From the NCBI GenBank assembly GCA_023260255.1, contig JALQVV010000002.1, forward strand, positions 1 to 34,986: 34,986 bases of DNA, read 5' to 3'. The DNA is from Candidatus Saccharimonadia bacterium. Lineage in GTDB: Bacteria; Patescibacteriota; Saccharimonadia; Saccharimonadales; Saccharimonadaceae. Positions 1 through 26,122 of the stretch are shown here, piece by piece. The notes beneath the pieces are model-generated. The model ran no database searches. It saw only the letters and a list, made by a program, of their open reading frames with translations, and was not told the DNA's origin. Positions within the stretch are counted from its first letter, which is position 1, and each line of letters opens with the position of its first letter. The position numbers and the translations under genes are program-made.

Positions 1-1008
1 GCGCTCATCGCCATCATGTTCCTGTCATTCACTGTTTGGCTGCACCATTTCTTTACGATGGGTGCGGGTGCCAATGTGAATGCATTTTTCGGTATCATGA
101 CAATGATTATTTCGATACCGACGGGTGTCAAAGTATTTAACTGGCTGTTTACGATGTTCCGCGGGAGAATCAGTTTCAAGACCCCGATGCTGTGGTTTAT
201 GGGATTTGTCGTGACATTTACGATCGGGGGTGTGACGGGTGTATTGATGGCAGTACCGGGCATTGACTTCCAGGTGCATAATAGCCTGTTTTTGGTCGCG
301 CATTTTCATAATATGATCATTGGTGGTGTCCTGTTTGGCGTCTTTGCGGGCTTTAGTTACTGGTTCCCGAAGTTTACTGGTTTTCGCCTTCATGAAGGGC
401 TTGGCAAAGCTGCATTTTGGTGTTGGCTGATTGGCTTTTTGCTGGCGTTCTTGCCACTCTATATCCTAGGATTTATGGGCGCGGTGCGGCGGCTTGATCA
501 TTACGATCCAAGCCTTGGATGGCAGGGTCTGTTTATTGTTGCGGGTGTCGGTGTCATGGTGATCTTGCTCGGGGTATTTTTCCAGGTAGTACAGATAGCG
601 TACAGTATTTGGAAACGCAAAGAATTAGCTGTTGGTCCAGATCCTTGGGATGGCCGTACGCTCGAATGGGCAACATCAACACCAATTGCTGAATATAATT
701 TCGCAACGCTCGATACTGTACGTGAACGCGATGCGTACTGGGATATGAAGCAACGCTTTGTGAAATCATCAACAAAATACGAACCGATTACTGTACCAAA
801 TAATACAGGTATCGGGGTATTTATCTGCATCGCGGCGGTAGCGATTGGTTTTGCGATTATTTGGCATATTTGGTGGCTGGCACTCGTCGGTTTAGTTGGC
901 ATGATTGTCCTTGTGATTGTATCGACGCTGCGCGAAAATACAGAACATACAATTTCGGCAAGCGAAGTCGCCGCTATCGAAAAGCAGTTACGGAGGGCTA
1001 AGGCATGA
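1..1008 (+). CDS. cyoB: Cytochrome bo3 ubiquinol oxidase subunit I, C-terminal part (5' truncated by window)
   Basis: Frame open from base 1 (ALIAIMFLSFTVWLHHFFTMG...), heme-copper oxidase His motif HFHNMIIGGVLFG, CyoB-like DPWDGRTLEW...PEYNF-type C-terminus. Confidence 0.93.
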   Translation, partial: ALIAIMFLSFTVWLHHFFTMGAGANVNAFFGIMTMIISIPTGVKVFNWLFTMFRGRISFKTPMLWFMGFVVTFTIGGVTGVLMAVPGIDFQVHNSLFLVAHFHNMIIGGVLFGVFAGFSYWFPKFTGFRLHEGLGKAAFWCWLIGFLLAFLPLYILGFMGAVRRLDHYDPSLGWQGLFIVAGVGVMVILLGVFFQVVQIAYSIWKRKELAVGPDPWDGRTLEWATSTPIAEYNFATLDTVRERDAYWDMKQRFVKSSTKYEPITVPNNTGIGVFICIAAVAIGFAIIWHIWWLALVGLVGMIVLVIVSTLRENTEHTISASEVAAIEKQLRRAKA

Positions 1009-1589
1009 GTGTTGCGGTAGAAGAAAAAGCTCGGCTCGGAAGGACGACGATTGGTTTCTGGGTATATCTGATGACCGACTGTCTGTTGTTTGCCAGTTTG
1101 TTTGCGACATTTGCCGTGCTCCGTGGTGCTACGGCGGACGGGCCAAGCGGCAAGGACATATTTGAGCTACCGATGGTACTCGCTGAAACGATTATTCTGC
1201 TCGCGAGTAGTTTTACCTGTGGGCTGGCGCTTCTTGGCATTAAGTCTGGCAATCTGCGTCAGATTGTGATTGCTCTTGGTGCGACATATGTTCTGGGTGT
1301 CGCCTTTTTGACGATTGAGTTGAGCGAATTTGCGAAGTTACTATCCGAAGGACATGGTCCACAGCAAAGCGCATTTTTGTCGGCGTTCTTTACGCTTGTT
1401 GGGACACACGGACTGCATATTACCGTCGGATTAATCTGGCTGGTGACGCTTGCGGCCGTCCTGGTGCGCCGTGGTCTCACCGCCAAAGTATCAAGGCAAT
1501 TAACACTCTTCGGTTTGTTTTGGCATTTCCTTGATCTTGTATGGATATTCATTTTCACCGTTGTTTATCTGATGGGGGTTTCTGTATGA
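1005..1589 (+). CDS. cyoC: Cytochrome o ubiquinol oxidase subunit III
   Basis: 194 aa multi-TM protein, overlaps cyoB stop (ATGA), THGLHITVGLIWL motif of COX3/CyoC. Confidence 0.92.
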   Translation: MSVAVEEKARLGRTTIGFWVYLMTDCLLFASLFATFAVLRGATADGPSGKDIFELPMVLAETIILLASSFTCGLALLGIKSGNLRQIVIALGATYVLGVAFLTIELSEFAKLLSEGHGPQQSAFLSAFFTLVGTHGLHITVGLIWLVTLAAVLVRRGLTAKVSRQLTLFGLFWHFLDLVWIFIFTVVYLMGVSV

Positions 1590-1930
1590 CACTGCAGAAG
1601 TACATTATTGGCTTTGTCGGTTCATTGCTATTAACACTCGCGGCATATTTCCTTGTTACCAACAACACGGCAAGCGGATTGACGCTGTTGTTGATACTCG
1701 GCGGGCTCGCATTGGTACAGATGATTGTTCAGCTTGTTTATTTCTTGCACCTCGGTGACGAGGCGCGGCCGCGTTACAAACTGGCATCATTTGTATTCAT
1801 GGCGGGTATTTTAGTAATTGTCGTTGTGGGATCGATCTGGATTATGAATAATCTCAACGCTAATATGATGGACATGACACCCACCCAAAAAGACGAGTAT
1901 ATGAAAACACAGTTCGATAAAGGCTTTTAA
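1586..1930 (+). CDS. cyoD: Cytochrome o ubiquinol oxidase subunit IV
   Basis: Start taken at MTLQKYIIGF (ATGA overlap with cyoC); 3 TM, QMIVQLVYFLHLG motif typical of CyoD. Confidence 0.88.
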   Translation: MTLQKYIIGFVGSLLLTLAAYFLVTNNTASGLTLLLILGGLALVQMIVQLVYFLHLGDEARPRYKLASFVFMAGILVIVVVGSIWIMNNLNANMMDMTPTQKDEYMKTQFDKGF

Positions 1931-1933
1931 TCT

Positions 1934-2800
1934 GTGCGAGAAAAACTGAACGCGTACTATCAGTTGACCAAACCTGGCGTGTTATATGGCAATGTGCTCA
2001 CTGGTGCTGCCGGTTTTTTACTGGCTGCTGCGGGACAGGTTAATTGGCTGCTATTTATTGCGGCAATTGCTGGCATGACGCTTGTCATCGCGGCCGCTTG
2101 TGTGATCAATAACTACTTGGACCGTGACATTGATAGTATTATGGAGCGGACGAAATCACGACCGAGCGTGACTGGTGTTATCAAGGGTAACCATATGGTA
2201 ATCTATGGCATCACGCTATTAGTGCTCGGTATTGCAATTCTTGCATTTTGGACCAATTGGCTCGTTGTCGTGATTGGTATTATTGGATTTGTCACGTATG
2301 TTTGGCTCTACGGTGCGCTGTCAAAGCGACGATCAATCCACGGTACACTGGTCGGCAGTATTTCGGGTGCGATGCCGATTGCGGGCGGGTATGCAGCTGT
2401 CAGCGGTCATGTTGACATAGGGCTGATTCTCGTCTTTCTCATCCTCTTTTTCTGGCAGTTCCCGGAATTTTATTCGATAGCTATCTATCGGCGCAAAGAG
2501 TACGCCGCTGCCCATGTACCAGTTATGTCAGTTATCAAAGGCGTCCGATCAACAATCCTGCAGATTTACATTTATACGATTTTATATGTGTTCTGTACAT
2601 TACTTCTCACCGTATTTGATTACACGGGTATTGTGTATCTGATTGTTATGGCTGTGGCTGGTGGTTATTGGGTATGGCTTGCGGGTAAGGGGCTTTCGAC
2701 CAAGCATCCCGAATCGTGGGCACGCAAAATGTTCCGCACATCGATGTACACCATCTTGTTGCTCTGTGTCATGTTGGCTGTCGGCCCACTTTTGCCGTGA
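1934..2800 (+). CDS. cyoE: Protoheme IX farnesyltransferase (heme O synthase), GTG start
   Basis: UbiA-family motif NNYLDRDIDSIMERTKSRP; last gene of cyo cluster. Confidence 0.93.
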   Translation: MREKLNAYYQLTKPGVLYGNVLTGAAGFLLAAAGQVNWLLFIAAIAGMTLVIAAACVINNYLDRDIDSIMERTKSRPSVTGVIKGNHMVIYGITLLVLGIAILAFWTNWLVVVIGIIGFVTYVWLYGALSKRRSIHGTLVGSISGAMPIAGGYAAVSGHVDIGLILVFLILFFWQFPEFYSIAIYRRKEYAAAHVPVMSVIKGVRSTILQIYIYTILYVFCTLLLTVFDYTGIVYLIVMAVAGGYWVWLAGKGLSTKHPESWARKMFRTSMYTILLLCVMLAVGPLLP

Positions 2801-2856
2801 TGTGCTATACTGGCAGCAAGAAGCTTAAGGTAAATAAAAACTAAAAAGGACAAACG

Positions 2857-4041
2857 ATGAAAGTAACGATTGTGGGCGGCGGTTTCGGGGGTGTGAAAAC
2901 AGCACTTGAATTGGCTAAAAACAAACAGAACCGTGTGACGTTGATTAGCGATAAAGATGAGTTTCAGTTTTATCCGGTGCTCTATGCAACTGCAACTGGC
3001 CGTAGTCATCTGCAGTCATGGGTACCACTCGGGACGATTTTTGCTGATAAGCCCAACGTTGATGTTGTTCTGGACAGTGTCACCAACGTAAATCCTACAA
3101 AAAAACAACTACAGGCTGCAAGCGGTAATACATATGAATACGAACACCTTGTATTGGCGCTTGGGACAGTGACGACTTACTTTGGTATCAAGGGCCTGGA
3201 CCACTATGCTTTCGGTATTAAATCCGAAGCTGAAATACACAAACTCAAACACCATCTGTTCCAGCAAATGAACGAACAGCGAACCGTCGACAAGCATTAT
3301 GTCATTGTTGGCGGTGGTCCGACAGGTGTTGAGTTGGCTGCTACGCTCGGGTCGTATCTGAAGCGTTTGAGCAAAGACTATGGATTGCCGAATCGTAAAA
3401 TCAGAATTAATCTTGTCGAGGCATCACCACGATTACTCCCACGCATGCACCCTAAGACGAGTGAGCGAGTTAAAAAGCGGTTGGAAAAGCTTGGTGTCCA
3501 TGTAGAGCTGGATAAAAAAGTTGAATCGGCAACAGCCAACAGCTTGACGATCAGCGGTGTGCCGCTCAATAGCCAGACAATTATATGGACATCCGGTGTC
3601 GCCAATCATCCTTTCTATATGGCGAATGATAAACATTTCGAATTCGCAAAGAATGGCAAAATAGTCGTCAATCAATATATGCGAACAAAAGACGGTATTT
3701 ATGTGATTGGTGACAATGCCGCAACGCCTTTTAGTGGACTGGCACAGACGGCATTATATGATGCGCATTTTGTTGGCCATAATTTCAAGTTGCGACAAGC
3801 TCACAAGCCGCTGAAAAAATACCATCCGCGATTGCAGCCGGTGGTTATACCGCTTGGTGAAGACTGGGCCGCGTTTGAATGGCACGGCATACGTGTGTAC
3901 GGTTGGATCGGAGCATTGATGCATCATGCTGCAGATGCATTGATGTATTATGATGTGCTGCCACTTTTCCGAGCACTCAGTGTGTGGCGCAGCCGTGGCG
4001 ATTACGAGCGCGATTACTTTACGCCAACACCGCCACGATAG
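2857..4041 (+). CDS. Type II NADH:quinone oxidoreductase-like FAD pyridine nucleotide-disulfide oxidoreductase
   Basis: N-terminal GGGFGGVKTALELAK, second Rossmann IVGGGPTGVELAATL, C-terminal GDNAATPFSGLAQTA. Confidence 0.85.
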   Translation: MKVTIVGGGFGGVKTALELAKNKQNRVTLISDKDEFQFYPVLYATATGRSHLQSWVPLGTIFADKPNVDVVLDSVTNVNPTKKQLQAASGNTYEYEHLVLALGTVTTYFGIKGLDHYAFGIKSEAEIHKLKHHLFQQMNEQRTVDKHYVIVGGGPTGVELAATLGSYLKRLSKDYGLPNRKIRINLVEASPRLLPRMHPKTSERVKKRLEKLGVHVELDKKVESATANSLTISGVPLNSQTIIWTSGVANHPFYMANDKHFEFAKNGKIVVNQYMRTKDGIYVIGDNAATPFSGLAQTALYDAHFVGHNFKLRQAHKPLKKYHPRLQPVVIPLGEDWAAFEWHGIRVYGWIGALMHHAADALMYYDVLPLFRALSVWRSRGDYERDYFTPTPPR

Positions 4042-4170
4042 ATTCGATAGAGCAAACTACCTCCTCATTTTTTAACCATCGTAACCCTCTTGGGAATCTT
4101 GATGTAAACTTCAGGAATCGCAAGAAGATTAGCGAAAAGTGTTAACGGTGCGAAAAATAAGAAAGCGGTC

Positions 4171-4179
4171 TGCTATAAT
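4171..4179 (+). promoter_or_regulatory. Extended -10 promoter (TGCTATAAT) upstream of FKBP gene
   Basis: TGnTATAAT match 32 nt before ATG 4212. Confidence 0.6.
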
Positions 4180-4211
4180 GATGAGAGCTAAAAGAGAGGT
4201 GTAAATTACAT

Positions 4212-4754
4212 ATGTCAACGACAAAAAGTCAACGTATTGGTATTTGGGTTATTGCAATTGTTATGGCCATTGGAACGATCGGCTCGTTTTTCGTCATTAT
4301 TCTTGCGAATGATAACGCAAAGATTGATCAGCAAAAACAGCAGGAAGAGTACCAGAAACTGGTTGATGAAATGCGTAAAGCTAATAAGCCATTGGAGGGT
4401 TATGAAGCCACGCCGTTTGACAAAGCTAGCGTGACTGAGCTGAAATCCGAGGTCATAAAAGAAGGTGACGGTGCCGAAGTCAAAGCCGACTCGACAATCA
4501 ATGCCAACTATTTTGGCTGGACTGCTGATGGCAAGATCTTTGACAGCACAAACAAAAATGGCACGACAACGCCGATTGATTTTAACCTCGGACAGGTGAT
4601 CAAAGGCTGGACAGAAGGCTTGGCTGGCAAAAAAGTTGGCTCAACTGTGAAGCTGACGATTCCTGCTGACAAGGCGTATGGTGATGTCGATAGCGGTACG
4701 GGGCAGCCAACGGGTCCATTGATGTTTATCGTTGAAATAAAAGCACTAAAATAA
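4212..4754 (+). CDS. Membrane-anchored FKBP-type peptidyl-prolyl cis-trans isomerase
   Basis: N-terminal TM; IFDSTNKNGTTTPIDFNLGQVIKGWTEGLAGKKVGSTVKLTIPADKAYG = FKBP signature. Confidence 0.9.
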   Translation: MSTTKSQRIGIWVIAIVMAIGTIGSFFVIILANDNAKIDQQKQQEEYQKLVDEMRKANKPLEGYEATPFDKASVTELKSEVIKEGDGAEVKADSTINANYFGWTADGKIFDSTNKNGTTTPIDFNLGQVIKGWTEGLAGKKVGSTVKLTIPADKAYGDVDSGTGQPTGPLMFIVEIKALK

Positions 4755-19244: not shown

Positions 19245-21533
19245 ATGAGGTTTTCGTTCAAAAAGAGAACAGGGGTAATAAATAAACAAAACCAGCCAAA
19301 TAGTGCCGGGTTCCTATTGCCAGTCGTTATTTTTCTGGGTATAGGCATTGGTACTGTCAGTGTTGTTGCGCTGCAGTCGGTGGCTAATAACAGTACGACA
19401 CTCAATACGCAGTATTATGATTCGGCTGCGCGAGAGGCTGCGCAAGCTGGGATTGCCTCTGCGGCACAGTGCATTAAGAGTAACGATCGGTCATGGAGTG
19501 CGGATACCGATCCAGCAACCACCCTACGCCCCGATACCGGCTGCGATGGCAACGCGGTCGGCGGTCGGTCGGCATACGTGGTCGATCCAGCAGACAATCT
19601 GCCTTATGTTAGTTACTACGAAGTGGGAAATCTGCAAGCGCCCTCTTCAAACACAGTCGTTGTGACATCAACCGGCACGGTAAAGGTAAAAGGGCCAAGC
19701 GGCACGTATGTCAGCACGACAACAAGTACGGTTCGGACATTTGCCAAATCATCAACCACACCAACCGGTTATGTCAGTAAGAATGTCACCGGTGTGAGTA
19801 CTGGACCCAGTACAGCCTGTGCGGTTGCTGAAGGCTGGGTATATTGTTGGGGAAGTAACGCCAACAAGATGGTAGGTGCAGGTAAAAATTTTGCCAATGA
19901 TAGGGCGCTCCTTCCAACCAAAGTTGCCGATAACGGAGCGACAACAACGGCCCTTCCTGGTTCCCCAAATCCTTGTGGGGGCTTCCTTCAGCCAGGGTGC
20001 GTGACGAACCCAACCCCAGCCCAACCCAAAAGTGCTTTGACGAATGCGGATGGTAGTCGCAAATATGTCATGAAAGTAAGCGTTGGCAGCACACATGTGT
20101 GCGTCATGGCAAAAGATAGTCAGAGTGCCAATGACAATACGGCAAATGCCTATTGCTGGGGCGATAATGCAAGTGGTCAGTTGGGTACGCGTAATACAAC
20201 GGATACCATGACGCCTGTTGCTGTCGACACAGCGCCGTATGTGCCAGCTGAAGTCTCAACCGGACAGTGTGGTGGCTGGTTCCAGCGCGCGTGCAATCCG
20301 GCAGCTCCTGCGAGTGCGTTGAATGGCAAAAATATCAAGGATATTAGTGCTGGCAGTGGCTTCACCTGCGCACTGACAACCGATGGCCACGTGAGTTGCT
20401 GGGGGGCAAATGATAGCGGGCAACTCGGGACGGGTGATAGCTCAACATACAACTACCCAGTGGCTGTCAATGAAGATCCCTATGTGCCAGCTGAAGTCTC
20501 AACCGGACAGTGTGGTGGCTGGTTCCAGCGGCCCTGTAACCCAGCGGTGCCTGCCAGCGCCTTGAACGGTAAGTCGGTGAAGGCGCTCGGTCGAGTAAAA
20601 GCAGCGAGGACGATGTGTGTCATTGAGACCGATGATAAACACGCCTGTTGGGGCGAAAACTGGTCGGGGCAAGCTGGGGATGGAACGAAATCAGGCAATA
20701 CAACATCAACAACCGATTGTTCAGGTGGCAACTCATCGACACCGCCAGACTCATCTTTCCCTATTACATCTGCGGCTGACGAGCTACGGCCAGTCGAAGT
20801 GCAAACAACACTCAAGTTTGACTCGATCACAACATTCGGTGGAAGTGATTGGGGCTATACCATCGCAAAAACCTCTAGTTCATCGACGAATCCAAACCGT
20901 GTGTTCTATTGGGGTGGCACGACGGATGTCTCGTCCAAGACACGGCGAGCATGTGGAAGTACCGGTGGGTCGAGTGGTCCAGGTGTCAATAAGTATGAAT
21001 GGACAGGCACTCGCACCTATACGGGACAAACAACCCCAACTGGACCCCTCTTCAATGATTCCTCTGCTGGATCTCTCAATGGTGCGACACTCAGTCTTAT
21101 ATCGGGTAATGCTATCAACGGGCTATTTTGCGCCCAGACAACAACAAATGTTTCGTACTGTACAACCAACGGCGGGCGCGCAGCCGATGGCCAGACAGGT
21201 AATGGAACTGTCGTGTCATGTTCGACGAACTGGCTTGGTGTTGAAACCTGTACGCCGTCAATCCCTTCGGGGCCGCAACCGGTCAAATTGACAGGCGCTC
21301 TAGCAGGACAACTGCCGATCACTGATATAGACACCGGGTCGAGCGGCTATACCTGTGCCGTGGCAGCAAATGCGGTCTATTGTTGGGGGGTTAATAGCAG
21401 TGGTCAGGCAGGGGTTAATAACACAACCGATCAGTTTGAACCCGCTCGCCAATACCTCGACCCACCGAGTGACTTAGGTGTACAGTCGTCTGCATCCGGT
21501 ACGACGGTATGGAGTGATCCAGTAAACTTCTAG
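19245..21533 (+). CDS. Exported protein with pilin-like/PilX-like N-terminus and RCC1-type repeats
   Basis: SAG|FLLPVVIFLGIGIGTVSVVALQSVANNSTTLN N-terminal hydrophobic helix; repeated CWG.N..GQ.G blades. Confidence 0.75.
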   Translation: MRFSFKKRTGVINKQNQPNSAGFLLPVVIFLGIGIGTVSVVALQSVANNSTTLNTQYYDSAAREAAQAGIASAAQCIKSNDRSWSADTDPATTLRPDTGCDGNAVGGRSAYVVDPADNLPYVSYYEVGNLQAPSSNTVVVTSTGTVKVKGPSGTYVSTTTSTVRTFAKSSTTPTGYVSKNVTGVSTGPSTACAVAEGWVYCWGSNANKMVGAGKNFANDRALLPTKVADNGATTTALPGSPNPCGGFLQPGCVTNPTPAQPKSALTNADGSRKYVMKVSVGSTHVCVMAKDSQSANDNTANAYCWGDNASGQLGTRNTTDTMTPVAVDTAPYVPAEVSTGQCGGWFQRACNPAAPASALNGKNIKDISAGSGFTCALTTDGHVSCWGANDSGQLGTGDSSTYNYPVAVNEDPYVPAEVSTGQCGGWFQRPCNPAVPASALNGKSVKALGRVKAARTMCVIETDDKHACWGENWSGQAGDGTKSGNTTSTTDCSGGNSSTPPDSSFPITSAADELRPVEVQTTLKFDSITTFGGSDWGYTIAKTSSSSTNPNRVFYWGGTTDVSSKTRRACGSTGGSSGPGVNKYEWTGTRTYTGQTTPTGPLFNDSSAGSLNGATLSLISGNAINGLFCAQTTTNVSYCTTNGGRAADGQTGNGTVVSCSTNWLGVETCTPSIPSGPQPVKLTGALAGQLPITDIDTGSSGYTCAVAANAVYCWGVNSSGQAGVNNTTDQFEPARQYLDPPSDLGVQSSASGTTVWSDPVNF
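20238..20287 (+). repeat. 50-bp exact direct repeat, copy 1 (within RCC1-repeat gene)
   Basis: tatgtgccagctgaagtctcaaccggacagtgtggtggctggttccagcg identical to 20481-20530. Confidence 0.95.
20481..20530 (+). repeat. 50-bp exact direct repeat, copy 2
   Basis: Identical to 20238-20287; encodes YVPAEVSTGQCGGWFQR. Confidence 0.95.
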
Positions 21534-21567
21534 TTACTTGCATAAGCATGATAAAATAACCATAAGC

Positions 21568-24180
21568 ATGGAAGATTCGTCGACGAACCCGTATATCCCG
21601 CAGGAGTCTGAGGCTATTCGGCAAAAAGTATACCAGCAACAATCGCCGCTTGGACGCGTGGTGAAATGGTCGCTGATTGCGACAATTATTGTTGCAGTGC
21701 TTGTAGGGATTGGTTTGTTTTTTGTTGTTCCACGAAGTGAAGCGGTTGATCAACAGGCTCGGGTAAAACTTGCTGACGCATTGCAGCCACCCGATCAGAC
21801 ATTAAAACGTGTTCCAGTCCAGTCAGATCTTGGATTCAAACTGAATTATGACAACCGTGTTTATAGTAGCTATGCAGAAGTAGGTGACAGCACGGCAGGG
21901 TCGGATAGTAGCGCTGCAGTCTTGTCGGGTCAAACATATGAAAACAATGATTTGCGGGTGACTCGTGCCTACAATTATGTTCGTATTCGGCCGATTGAAA
22001 GTGTTGAAGGTGCACGTGCGTTGGCGACTCAACCACCCCAACTTGAATTATTTGCAACCGTCACAGACAAAGATTTAACAACCGCTGCAACAGTTGCGGA
22101 GAATAAGGGGCTGTCCAAGCTTAGTTTGTTCGTTAAGCTTGATTCCGACAAGCGTTTGGCGAAAAAGGTGGCCGATGACAAAACAGTTGTCACAATCGAA
22201 GCCTCAAAACCTGTTTCGGCGAGTATTGGAAGTGTTGACTATCAAAAAGTGAGGTTTACGACAACGAACGATAACCACCGCGTTTCCAATGTGCAATATG
22301 ATGACTGCTACTACACAATTCAAAATGATCAGCCTTATTCCGTGTGTATCAGTAATGTCCGACCTACCAATGTCAGTGCTGCGAGTTTGGTGGAGCAGGT
22401 TTTCGATTCGATTACCTATGAGCAGCCTTCGGTTGACGCATCGGGGGCGGATAACAATACAGATACCAGCAAGAAGACCTCGTATGCGCTTCCGCTGGCA
22501 CGGCTTGCCAAGACATCAATAACCGATGAGGCATCGCAGTCAGGTAGTTCGGACAATACCCAGGACAGCAGTGAGGCACCACTTCTTACTATTACGCCAG
22601 AATACTACGCAGATGCTGCCAGTCTGAAAGCAATCGCCAAAAATCAGCCAAGTGTCGTGAGGATTGGCACGCTCTACTGTACGAATCTTGCTCTCAAATT
22701 TGAAAGCGGTGAAACAGCCACAACGCTGACCGATGCTTGTGCTGGCACGGTGGCGAGCGGTGTATTTATTTCAAAAGATGGCTATGTTGCGACGACTGGT
22801 CATGCGATTCGCGCACAGAAAAAAGCAGCGATCAACGGGTATATTAACTTTGCTCCAGATCAAGATCAGATGCTCGATCGTTTGCAGCGTATTCTCGACT
22901 ACCTGCTAAAGGCAAAGATTATTCTGCAGTCAGACGCGGACTATCTGAAAACAGGCGCTTCTATCGGCGATCAAGAAGCGCTCGCGAAAGTTGAAAACAT
23001 TGCTTCTGTCATACCGGATAATTTTATCGTGCCGGTGAACGAAAGCTACACTTACGCGATTCAGCCAACCGATAAGCCAATCGTCATCAACAGGACAGAT
23101 AGCAACAAGCCAGCGTTTGCCTACTCGGATAGTGTACTGAATGCAAAATATGTTGCATCTAATTATGATGCGGCAAAATCCATTCAGGAGGTCTTCGGGA
23201 GTCAGACGCCATCGACTGACGTCGGACTATTAAAAGTCGATGGTGATTTTCCAAATGTTTCAATAGCAGCCAATGAGGATGTCAAAGCGAATGACACGCT
23301 GAGCACTGTTGGCTATTCTGCCTACACCGATAGTTCGCTAACAATCGACAAGATCCGCAATATTCCTGTGGTTACCTCAAGTAAGGTCGAGCAAGCCTAC
23401 CAAAAAGATGGTGGTCGTTTGATTCAGACAAATATGCCAGTGCTCCCTGGGAATGATGGAGCGCCAGTCTTTTCGAGTACTGGCAGCCTGGTTGGTTTTG
23501 CCGTCTATGGCTTGTTGTATTGCCCGGATCAACAGTGTTTTGCAAACGGCACCGTTCGATCATCAGCTGAACTCGTAAAATTATTGGACGACAGTAACAT
23601 CAAACTAGATACTTCTAGTAAAGCGTCGGCAACATGGGAGGAAGGCGTTCACCAGTATTTCCGCGCCAACTATGCAACGAGTACGACCGCATTTGCTGCT
23701 GGGGGAAATGAATATCCATTCAACCGATGGGCGGAGCCACTCAGTAAATTATCGAGTAGTCTAGAAGGTTCTCAGAGCGATACATCACTATGGAATCAGC
23801 TGCAAACGATTATGATCGTCGCGCTAATTATCCTGGTTGTACTGACAATAGTACTTGCGATTGCTTACTTCCTTCACCGTCGTCGGATTAGCTATTTGCA
23901 GGTTGGTCATTATGGTGCCGCTGAACCGCAACCTACTGTTATGGGGCCATCTGCGACATCAATGCAGCCACCCACTGCGCTTCCTCCGGCTCAACCTACA
24001 CAACCTACGCAACCTTTTCAACCATCGGCCGCACCAGCTCAACCTGGACAGCCTATTCAGCCGCAAACGCCATCACTCCAGATGCCTGTTCAGTCACCGC
24101 CAAGCTCCTCCGCACAGCAATACCCGCCTGCAGCGCCCACGGCTCCTTCGACACCGCCAGAAGATCCATTCTACAAATAG
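21568..24180 (+). CDS. Membrane protein with trypsin/HtrA-like fold domain, Pro/Gln-rich C-terminal tail
   Basis: TM near N-terminus (VVKWSLIATIIVAVLVGIGLFFVV), GVFISKDGYVATTGHAI, STDVGLLKVDGDFP, LPGNDGAPVFSSTGSLVGFAVYG, second TM then P/Q-rich tail; start at MEDSSTNPYIPQ. Confidence 0.75.
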   Translation: MEDSSTNPYIPQESEAIRQKVYQQQSPLGRVVKWSLIATIIVAVLVGIGLFFVVPRSEAVDQQARVKLADALQPPDQTLKRVPVQSDLGFKLNYDNRVYSSYAEVGDSTAGSDSSAAVLSGQTYENNDLRVTRAYNYVRIRPIESVEGARALATQPPQLELFATVTDKDLTTAATVAENKGLSKLSLFVKLDSDKRLAKKVADDKTVVTIEASKPVSASIGSVDYQKVRFTTTNDNHRVSNVQYDDCYYTIQNDQPYSVCISNVRPTNVSAASLVEQVFDSITYEQPSVDASGADNNTDTSKKTSYALPLARLAKTSITDEASQSGSSDNTQDSSEAPLLTITPEYYADAASLKAIAKNQPSVVRIGTLYCTNLALKFESGETATTLTDACAGTVASGVFISKDGYVATTGHAIRAQKKAAINGYINFAPDQDQMLDRLQRILDYLLKAKIILQSDADYLKTGASIGDQEALAKVENIASVIPDNFIVPVNESYTYAIQPTDKPIVINRTDSNKPAFAYSDSVLNAKYVASNYDAAKSIQEVFGSQTPSTDVGLLKVDGDFPNVSIAANEDVKANDTLSTVGYSAYTDSSLTIDKIRNIPVVTSSKVEQAYQKDGGRLIQTNMPVLPGNDGAPVFSSTGSLVGFAVYGLLYCPDQQCFANGTVRSSAELVKLLDDSNIKLDTSSKASATWEEGVHQYFRANYATSTTAFAAGGNEYPFNRWAEPLSKLSSSLEGSQSDTSLWNQLQTIMIVALIILVVLTIVLAIAYFLHRRRISYLQVGHYGAAEPQPTVMGPSATSMQPPTALPPAQPTQPTQPFQPSAAPAQPGQPIQPQTPSLQMPVQSPPSSSAQQYPPAAPTAPSTPPEDPFYK

Positions 24181-24340: not shown

Positions 24341-25552
24341 ATGCCCCAATTTCAAAAAAGCGGCCAGCGCTCATTTCATGCTGCGCGCCGCAACTTCCGC
24401 CCCGGCGGATCAGGGAAAGGTGCTCACCGTAGTAACGGCAAGCAAAACATTCATCCCTCAAAATTCATCAATAAAGCAACCGCCTACGAAGAAAAACCCT
24501 ACGAACCGGCACATCGGTTTGCGGACTTTCCTTTTGGTGCAGAATTGCAGTACAACATCGCCAAAAAAGGTTTTGAACTACCAAGTGCAATTCAGGATCA
24601 GGCAATTCCACTGATCGTTGAAGGTCGCGATGTCATTGGCTTGGCAAATACCGGCACCGGCAAAACAGCTGCATTCCTATTGCCAATCATTGAACGCCAG
24701 CGGGGGATTATGCTCCGCCCAAGCGTGCTAATAGTCACACCAACACGAGAATTGGCACAGCAAATCGTTGAAGAATTCAATGATTTTGCTCGTGGTCTTG
24801 ATCTCGAGGCAGCGCTTATTGTCGGTGGGGTAAATATCGACCGCCAGATTCGTAGTTTGCGTCGTCGCCCGCACTTTATTGTGGGGACGCCAGGTCGTCT
24901 GAAAGATTTGATCGAGCGTCGTGAACTACAGATGAAAAACATGACGACACTTGTGCTGGATGAGGCTGATCGTATGCTAGACATGGGCTTTCTGCCCGAT
25001 ATTAAGCGTATTGTTGGCGGTATGCCACGTGAGCGCCAGACACTGTTTTTCAGTGCAACCATGACGCCTGACATCAAAGCTTTGACTGCGCAATTTCTGC
25101 ATGATCCTGCAACAGTACAAGTGCGTACTGGTGAGACAAGCGAACATGTTGAACAAGATGTGATCGAAGCTCGCGACAAAGCACATAAAATCGAATTGCT
25201 TCAAGATCTGTTGCAGCGCGACGGATACACCAAAGTCTTAGTGTTTGGCGATACGAAATATGGCGTACAACGCCTGAGTGATTTGCTGCATAAGAGTGGC
25301 ATTCCATCGGTGGCAATTCATGGCAACAAAAACCAATCTCAACGTCAAAAGGCCCTGCAGCAGTTTAAAGATGAGAGAGTCCGCGTATTGGTGGCAACAG
25401 ATGTTGCGGCACGTGGTCTCGACATCCCAAATGTGACGCACGTCATCAATTTTGACACACCGAAGACCTACGAGGATTATGTACACCGCATTGGCCGTAC
25501 CGGTCGTGGTGGTGCAAGTGGGCGTGCGCATACATTTATCGACGCGCGCTAA
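24341..25552 (+). CDS. DEAD-box ATP-dependent RNA helicase
   Basis: ANTGTGKTAAFLLPII, VLDEADRMLDMGF, FSATMTPD, HRIGRTGRGG. Confidence 0.95.
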   Translation: MPQFQKSGQRSFHAARRNFRPGGSGKGAHRSNGKQNIHPSKFINKATAYEEKPYEPAHRFADFPFGAELQYNIAKKGFELPSAIQDQAIPLIVEGRDVIGLANTGTGKTAAFLLPIIERQRGIMLRPSVLIVTPTRELAQQIVEEFNDFARGLDLEAALIVGGVNIDRQIRSLRRRPHFIVGTPGRLKDLIERRELQMKNMTTLVLDEADRMLDMGFLPDIKRIVGGMPRERQTLFFSATMTPDIKALTAQFLHDPATVQVRTGETSEHVEQDVIEARDKAHKIELLQDLLQRDGYTKVLVFGDTKYGVQRLSDLLHKSGIPSVAIHGNKNQSQRQKALQQFKDERVRVLVATDVAARGLDIPNVTHVINFDTPKTYEDYVHRIGRTGRGGASGRAHTFIDAR

Positions 25553-25589
25553 CTAAGCGTATATTTGGTGTTTTGGTTTTGGGTTATGG

Positions 25590-25618
25590 TTGCGCGGTGA
25601 GGATCGTTCTTGTATTAT
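25590..25618 (+). promoter_or_regulatory. Candidate promoter TTGCGC-N17-TATTAT for the ncRNA
   Basis: -35/-10-like hexamers with 17-nt spacer; an alternative -10 TATATT is at 25560-25565. Confidence 0.35.
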
Positions 25619-26111
25619 TACCCCGACAGCCGTGGAAAGAAATGTTGTACCCGCTCTGGTGAGTATGAGATCAGAGCTACATGTTAGCAGCAGGGCCAGT
25701 CGGACCCACGCACTCGGTCTCGTTCGATGTCGCGCACGTGCGCGCATGGCCGAGCGATCGGATCCATTACCATCCGGCAGTGAACTGTCAGTGACGCTGG
25801 CACGACGACCGGAGGGATCCATCAGCGGGCCCGACCCTCTTGTATCCTGCGGTCCCTGCGGGGGCACGTCGGACGACGGCATGCGCCGTGGCGAGAGGGC
25901 ATGGCACGTCTGATCGCGCTACAGAACCGGACTCGGAGTCTGTGCCCTGGGCGAGCGAAAGCACAGGACGGCGCGATCGCATCGCTCCTTTGCGAAGCCT
26001 GCCGCTATCATGGAACGACGGTACCCCGAGCACCCACGTGGTGGGCTGCCACAAACTTTTTCCACCTCGGGTGTACTGCCATAACCCGGTTCTCGCATAG
26101 CGGGAACCGGG
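25619..26111 (+). ncRNA. Putative large structured ncRNA associated with the downstream reverse transcriptase (msr/msd-like)
   Basis: About 64% GC over 25681-26100 (269/420 by hand count) versus about 45% in a sampled RT line; series of inverted repeats (25653-25677, 25713-25754, 25760-25820, 25835-25899, 25912-25978, 26019-26078, 26085-26111); no conserved protein family recognised. Confidence 0.7.
26085..26111 (+). repeat. 12-bp near-perfect hairpin (one G-U pair) with 3-nt loop just upstream of RT start
   Basis: CCCGGTTCTCGC-ATA-GCGGGAACCGGG. Confidence 0.9.
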
Positions 26112-26122
26112 CAACTTACTAT

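Follow-up and report, generated by a model that had tools for sequence, protein, structure and literature searches.

In known retrons the two ends of the RNA pair with each other (a1/a2), and the usual role of retrons is defence. Retrons of the Ec86, Ec78, Ec83, Ec67, St85 and Mx162 types combine a reverse transcriptase (RT) bearing NAxxH and [V/I]TG motifs with an upstream ncRNA that has a 5'/3' inverted repeat, a CAGC priming context and an msr-like hairpin, and of these the RT motifs, the upstream ncRNA and a predicted msr-like hairpin have counterparts at the locus described here, as may the inverted repeat and the priming context. CAGC is the context of the priming G in Retron-Sau1 and Retron-Mxa1, and the primary transcript of Mx162 measures 241 nt (PMC6868368). 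By contrast, the span between the closing arms is 434–457 nt in the focal RNA and 200–480 nt in the RNAs of its relatives, the predicted core of the focal RNA is multibranched and not one msd hairpin, a local stem (X:X') surrounds the putative a2, and the RT belongs to a separate clade and has no adjacent effector. DRT2 and other defence-associated RTs with ncRNAs likewise have a structured upstream ncRNA and no separate effector gene, but the profiles and fold of the focal RT match retrons better. Group II introns also join an RT to a long structured RNA; the focal RNA, however, lies 5' of the RT instead of around it (no RT inside domain IV), matches no Rfam intron, and its RT gives a low-scoring group II match.

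The focal locus comprises the RT gene and the ~500 nt of GC-rich structured RNA preceding it (Table 1), and lies in the window, that is, the whole 34,986-nt stretch of DNA that was analysed, from a genome of 1.0 Mb in 121 contigs. GC content is 0.69 within the ncRNA versus about 0.47 around it, and the predicted fold of 25600–26122 is more stable than its own shuffles (z −3.3). The region is flanked by the gene of a DEAD-box helicase, whose end is at 25552, and by that of an ABC transporter; both genes are matched in genus siblings without the RT, and at the region where they match, the ncRNA and RT have no match in these siblings. An Rfam search revealed no family matching the ncRNA, no close ncRNA relatives were found, and sequence-pattern scans using the single RT returned nothing. 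Elsewhere in the window, the translations give the impression that a protein of 762 aa combines a pilin-like N-terminus with RCC1-like repeats and that the next gene, starting with TTG, encodes a trypsin-like membrane protein of 880 aa (19245–24180). At the window start (16–4041) they give the impression of terminal-oxidase genes and of genes resembling those for haem O synthase and NADH dehydrogenase, which would suggest that this reduced genome has a respiratory segment. The same genome encodes a second RT-like protein, non-retron, in a 523-aa open frame (L002, G000:C100:22651-23055).

The focal RT displays the motifs expected of retron RTs: NAERH corresponds to NAxxH of region X, and TITG to VTG of region Y with a V-to-I change that is also known in RT-Vch2. 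Many of its relatives have NVxxH or diverged forms at the NAxxH position. The best profile matches are to retron RTs, the scores being 84.8 bits for PADLOC RT_VI; matches were also obtained to NCBIfam retron_St85 (88.3 bits, below the cut-off of 235 for that model) and, lower, to group II RTs (42.3 bits). Retron RTs also lead the matches to solved structures by both sequence and fold, the predicted structure (mean pLDDT 60) being of good confidence in the RT core only. In the phylogenetic tree, which includes few known references and no non-retron RT class, the focal RT falls inside a clade of 18 RTs, all from Patescibacteria (99/98 support), and is set apart from both the Ec67 and the St85 type; its nearest named relative is a Saccharibacteria record. 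By its profile, sequence and fold matches the focal RT groups with retron RTs and not with other RT classes, and the retron-type RT with an ncRNA proposed in the first-pass annotation is supported. The focal RT sits on a long branch, its highest identity being 29%, and its relatives are only about 25–30% identical to it, an identity so low that RNA-level alignment of the focal ncRNA with those of the relatives is impossible; covariation for the focal RNA itself is therefore absent. In one relative the retron-type RT (L036:6216-8135) continues at its C-terminus into a YaaA domain, known from a peroxide stress protein (Pfam E 5e-63), and has a long upstream ncRNA of its own. In PADLOC, the C-terminal part of another relative's RT (L088:4815-6059) matches an RT-associated DnaG-like model as well as the UG29 DRT model, the latter at its N-terminus.

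The DNA upstream of the RT genes of the clade was read and searched for long-range helices, with a1/a2 of the relatives curated partly by eye. Closing helices of 8–15 bp, spanning 200–476 nt, are found in the upstream RNAs of 14 relatives (L034, L035, L036, L037, L038, L039, L088, L089, L115, L116, L119, L120, L075 and L076). The minimum free energy (MFE) fold closes on a1/a2 in most of the relatives folded, and some of the a1/a2 pairings fail to beat shuffles. In L035 and L088, CAGC starts right where a1 ends; the offset is one nt in L034 and a few nt more in L038 and L115. Just before the RT, Saccharibacteria members have a GC hairpin, followed by a T run in several. Many members have their a2 inside the loop formed by the local stem X:X', 0–3 nt from X'. 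With a2 fixed and the flanks shuffled, the occurrence of X:X' beside a2 has a Fisher combined p of 5e-7 without the focal locus and of 3.9e-5 when L036 and L037 are also left out, these two being hand-steered cases in which X' influenced the choice of a2; for the focal locus p is 0.03. An uncurated joint search for a1:a2 and X:X' was significant for some members only, and at the focal locus it chose a different, non-significant pair. The X:X' strands of L034 (GUCAUGCG/CGCAUGAC) and L035 (UUCAUGUC/GACAUGAG) have a common UCAUG:CAUGA core and differ at two pairs, each of which is changed in both strands. Since a1 lies far 5', a1:a2 crosses X:X', and we infer that the abutting helices form a long-range pseudoknot in these members. 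Upstream of the RT-adjacent ncRNA, L075 (at 4111-4420) and L076 (at the equivalent site) have another structured RNA, which is closed by a separate helix (GTGCGGGGGCAG/CTGCCCCCGCAT) and has a T run; it shares AGTGTC..GCTGACGCC..GTCATGC with the RT-adjacent ncRNA, the two being tandem related ncRNAs.

At the focal locus an 8-mer, TACCCCGA, is present exactly at 25619–25626 (copy 1) and at 26022–26029 (copy 2), and either copy can form 8 Watson–Crick pairs, with one bulged T, with TCGGGTGTA, which is exact at 26067–26075. The duplication, its coordinates and this pairing had been pointed out in the first-pass annotation and are all exact, as is the AGC at 25628–25630, one nt past copy 1. Further copies of the 8-mer in the whole window number only two, both on the minus strand (569 and 812). 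By analogy with the relatives, the focal a1/a2 core would be GUGGAAA/UUUCCAC (25632–25638/26059–26065), and X:X' is a predicted 12-bp stem of −18.1 kcal/mol. The core alone is weak, −8.2 kcal/mol versus −15 to −20 kcal/mol in the relatives; a combined helix of copy 1 and a1 (UACCCCGA-CAGCC-GUGGAAAG) against a2-X' reaches −17.0 kcal/mol, inside the range of the relatives, at the cost of losing X:X'. End closure of the focal RNA has two overlapping options, each weak on its own. When the RNA begins at 25560, 25570 or 25600, the favoured MFE fold lacks a1:a2, and closure on it appears only for RNAs cut at 25610–25625. The predicted msr-like hairpin (25653–25677) fits both the 7–10 bp expected of retron msr hairpins and the sizes described in PMC6868368. 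The single long msd hairpin expected of retrons was not found in the predicted multibranched core, a difference that weighs little, as it concerns a prediction only. An outer extension of the closing stem may be provided by GGGTTATGG and CCATAACCC, the latter overlapping the terminal hairpin by 3 nt; the presence of GGGTTATGG in the RNA would require the upstream promoter.

Table 1. Features of the focal locus, with positions in the window
Feature	Position	Strand	Basis
Upstream promoter candidate, TTATCG (25536–25541)-18-TATATT (25560–25565)	25536–25565	+	predicted start near 25572
GGGTTATGG, perfect 9-nt complement of CCATAACCC (26079–26087)	25581–25589	+	possible outer closing-stem extension
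Promoter candidate, TTGCGC (25590–25595)-17-TATTAT (25613–25618)	25590–25618	+	predicted start about 25625
TACCCCGA copy 1, a1 of the first-pass annotation; may form the outer part of an a1 in two blocks	25619–25626	+	sequence, energies, shuffles
CAGC with candidate priming G25629	25627–25630	+	known priming-G context; follows a1 in relatives
GUGGAAAG, putative a1	25632–25639	+	analogy with relatives; 25632–25638 pairs with 26059–26065
msr-like hairpin, 8 bp, 9-nt loop	25653–25677	+	MFE fold
Multibranched GC-rich (about 65%) ncRNA core, presumably holding msd	25680–26018	+	predicted fold
X, CGGTACCCCGAG, 5' strand of local stem; holds copy 2	26019–26030	+	predicted to pair with X'
CUUUUUCCAC, putative a2, in the X:X' loop and touching X'	26056–26065	+	analogy with relatives
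X', CTCGGGTGTACTG, 3' strand of local stem; holds 26067–26075, a2 of the first-pass annotation	26066–26078	+	
GC hairpin, 12-nt arms, just 5' of the RT gene	26085–26111	+	terminator/attenuator-like equivalents in several relatives
Retron-type reverse transcriptase, 341 aa	26123–27148	+	NAERH, YIDD and TITG motifs

Whether copy 1 is transcribed depends on the promoter. Both candidates match the consensus at 8 of 12 positions, a score reached by 28% of random 60-mers, and the choice of a start site from promoter motifs was rejected on this tie. A start near 25625 would leave copy 1 mostly untranscribed; the upstream candidate would include it. Most relatives have promoter-like elements 5–44 nt 5' of a1, the distance from the −10-like box to a1 being short (5–10 nt) in L036–L038 and 21–44 nt in L034, L035, L039, L088, L115 and L119. 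The general idea that the RNA is closed by pairing of its ends, at a place that directly follows promoter-like elements and directly precedes the RT, is supported, most clearly by the relatives.

We favour, with a probability of about 0.6, the reading that the locus belongs to a retron-type family of a Patescibacteria clade in which a1:a2 closure is stacked on X:X'. The first-pass annotation had instead assigned a1 to 25619–25626, a2 to 26067–26075 and the branch to G25629, with copy 2 as a decoy in a switch between closed and open forms, which we regard as rather doubtful. The complementarity is exact, and CAGC directly follows copy 1, as it does a1 in L034, L035 and L088 and as in retrons Sau1 and Mxa1. 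The proposal of a priming G beside a1 fits in general, but the GUGGAAA a1 is not directly followed by CAGC, and CAGC at the focal locus is correctly placed as a priming context only if copy 1 belongs to a1. The triple of two copies and a common partner is modestly beyond chance because only 34 of 2000 dinucleotide shuffles of 25553–26122 (1.7%) have a repeat with both copies complementary to one more site shortly downstream; moreover, 8 Watson–Crick pairs to X' are given by 69 of 20,000 shuffled leaders (0.35%). In the predicted energies, an RNA from 25619 adopts the long-range form by 4.4 kcal/mol, whereas the RNA from 25570 to 26115 prefers the local form by 4.8 kcal/mol, and the helix of copy 1 with X' is worth −9.3 kcal/mol versus the −18.1 kcal/mol of X:X'. 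Over four tested boundaries that include copy 1 the energy gap between the folds is 4.4 to 7.7 kcal/mol, and since the sign of the difference depends on the RNA start, both folds are possible on paper. The relatives argue against this assignment: in them a2 and X' are separate adjacent elements, the equivalent of their a2 lies immediately 5' of TCGGGTGTA, which itself belongs to X', and copy 2 lies in X, the 5' strand of the recurring local stem. The −10-like TATTAT, whose last base is 25618, also counts against it, as copy 1 may thus lie outside the transcript. Nor is the duplication with its switch conserved to a convincing degree. Across the clade, complementarity of the leader (5' of a1) to X' has p 0.10 (0.17 without the focal locus), and a looser chain score gives p 0.015 (0.03 without it); because several scores were tried, a family-wide leader:X' switch was rejected as unproven. 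The best other leader:X' match, similar to the focal one, is that of L119 (p 0.004–0.018).

A further possibility, to which we give somewhat less than even odds, is that copy 1 is a chance 8-mer in promoter DNA and that only X:X' and GUGGAAA/UUUCCAC are functional. The duplication alone is ordinary, an exact 8-mer repeat of some kind occurring in 1815 of the 2000 shuffles (91%), and the −10-like box TATTAT directly abuts copy 1, with a1 of L036–L038 starting 5–10 nt past such a box. Against this, the a1 core alone is weaker than the closing helices of the relatives, chance is unlikely to have produced both the position of CAGC and the leader:X' complementarity, and the promoter matches at only 8 of 12 positions. 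The stacked a1:a2 and X:X' reading and the scheme of the first-pass annotation are not mutually exclusive, and copy 1 may or may not take part. Much the least probable is a non-retron mechanism, in which a DRT2/DRT9/DRT10-like RT would use the structured ncRNA to synthesise DNA, in a repetitive or a templated manner, with no branched product. It would agree with the long ncRNA, with the putative pseudoknot, since the DRT2 ncRNA is pseudoknotted (PMC12039810), and with the absence of an adjacent effector in the window and in most relatives, among which no shared neighbour was found either; however, the profile, motif and fold matches of the RT favour retrons, and CAGC follows a1 in several members.

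According to the favoured family model, the transcript would start within 25572–25627 and end at or past the terminal hairpin. The a1 at its 5' end would pair with a2 beside the RT gene. This would close the long RNA around its multibranched core, and a G near a1 would be presented to the RT as a 2'-OH primer, as known retrons suggest. X:X' would enclose a2, which runs straight into X', such that a1:a2 and X:X' could stack as a long-range pseudoknot, an arrangement that recurs in the relatives. If transcribed, copy 1 would lengthen a1 on its outer side and compete with X for X'; alternatively, it would be promoter DNA that matches by chance. The RT most likely makes branched or RNA-linked DNA from the focal RNA. 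The locus would then be a retron variant, for which the switch is unproven. It is a more speculative and, in our estimate, unlikely extension that effector-less retrons with pseudoknot closure occur throughout Patescibacteria and that some of them, such as the focal locus and L119, swap X for the leader and so switch between priming-competent and locked states.

No description of retrons of such kind in Patescibacteria was found in the open-licence literature searched. If the family model is true, a separate retron-type clade of the ultra-small Patescibacteria, in which the RNAs can be twice as long as the Mx162 transcript, a2 is enclosed by a stem and an effector is usually absent from the vicinity, would add to the RNA designs that an RT can use and would raise the question of what such RTs do without a toxin partner.
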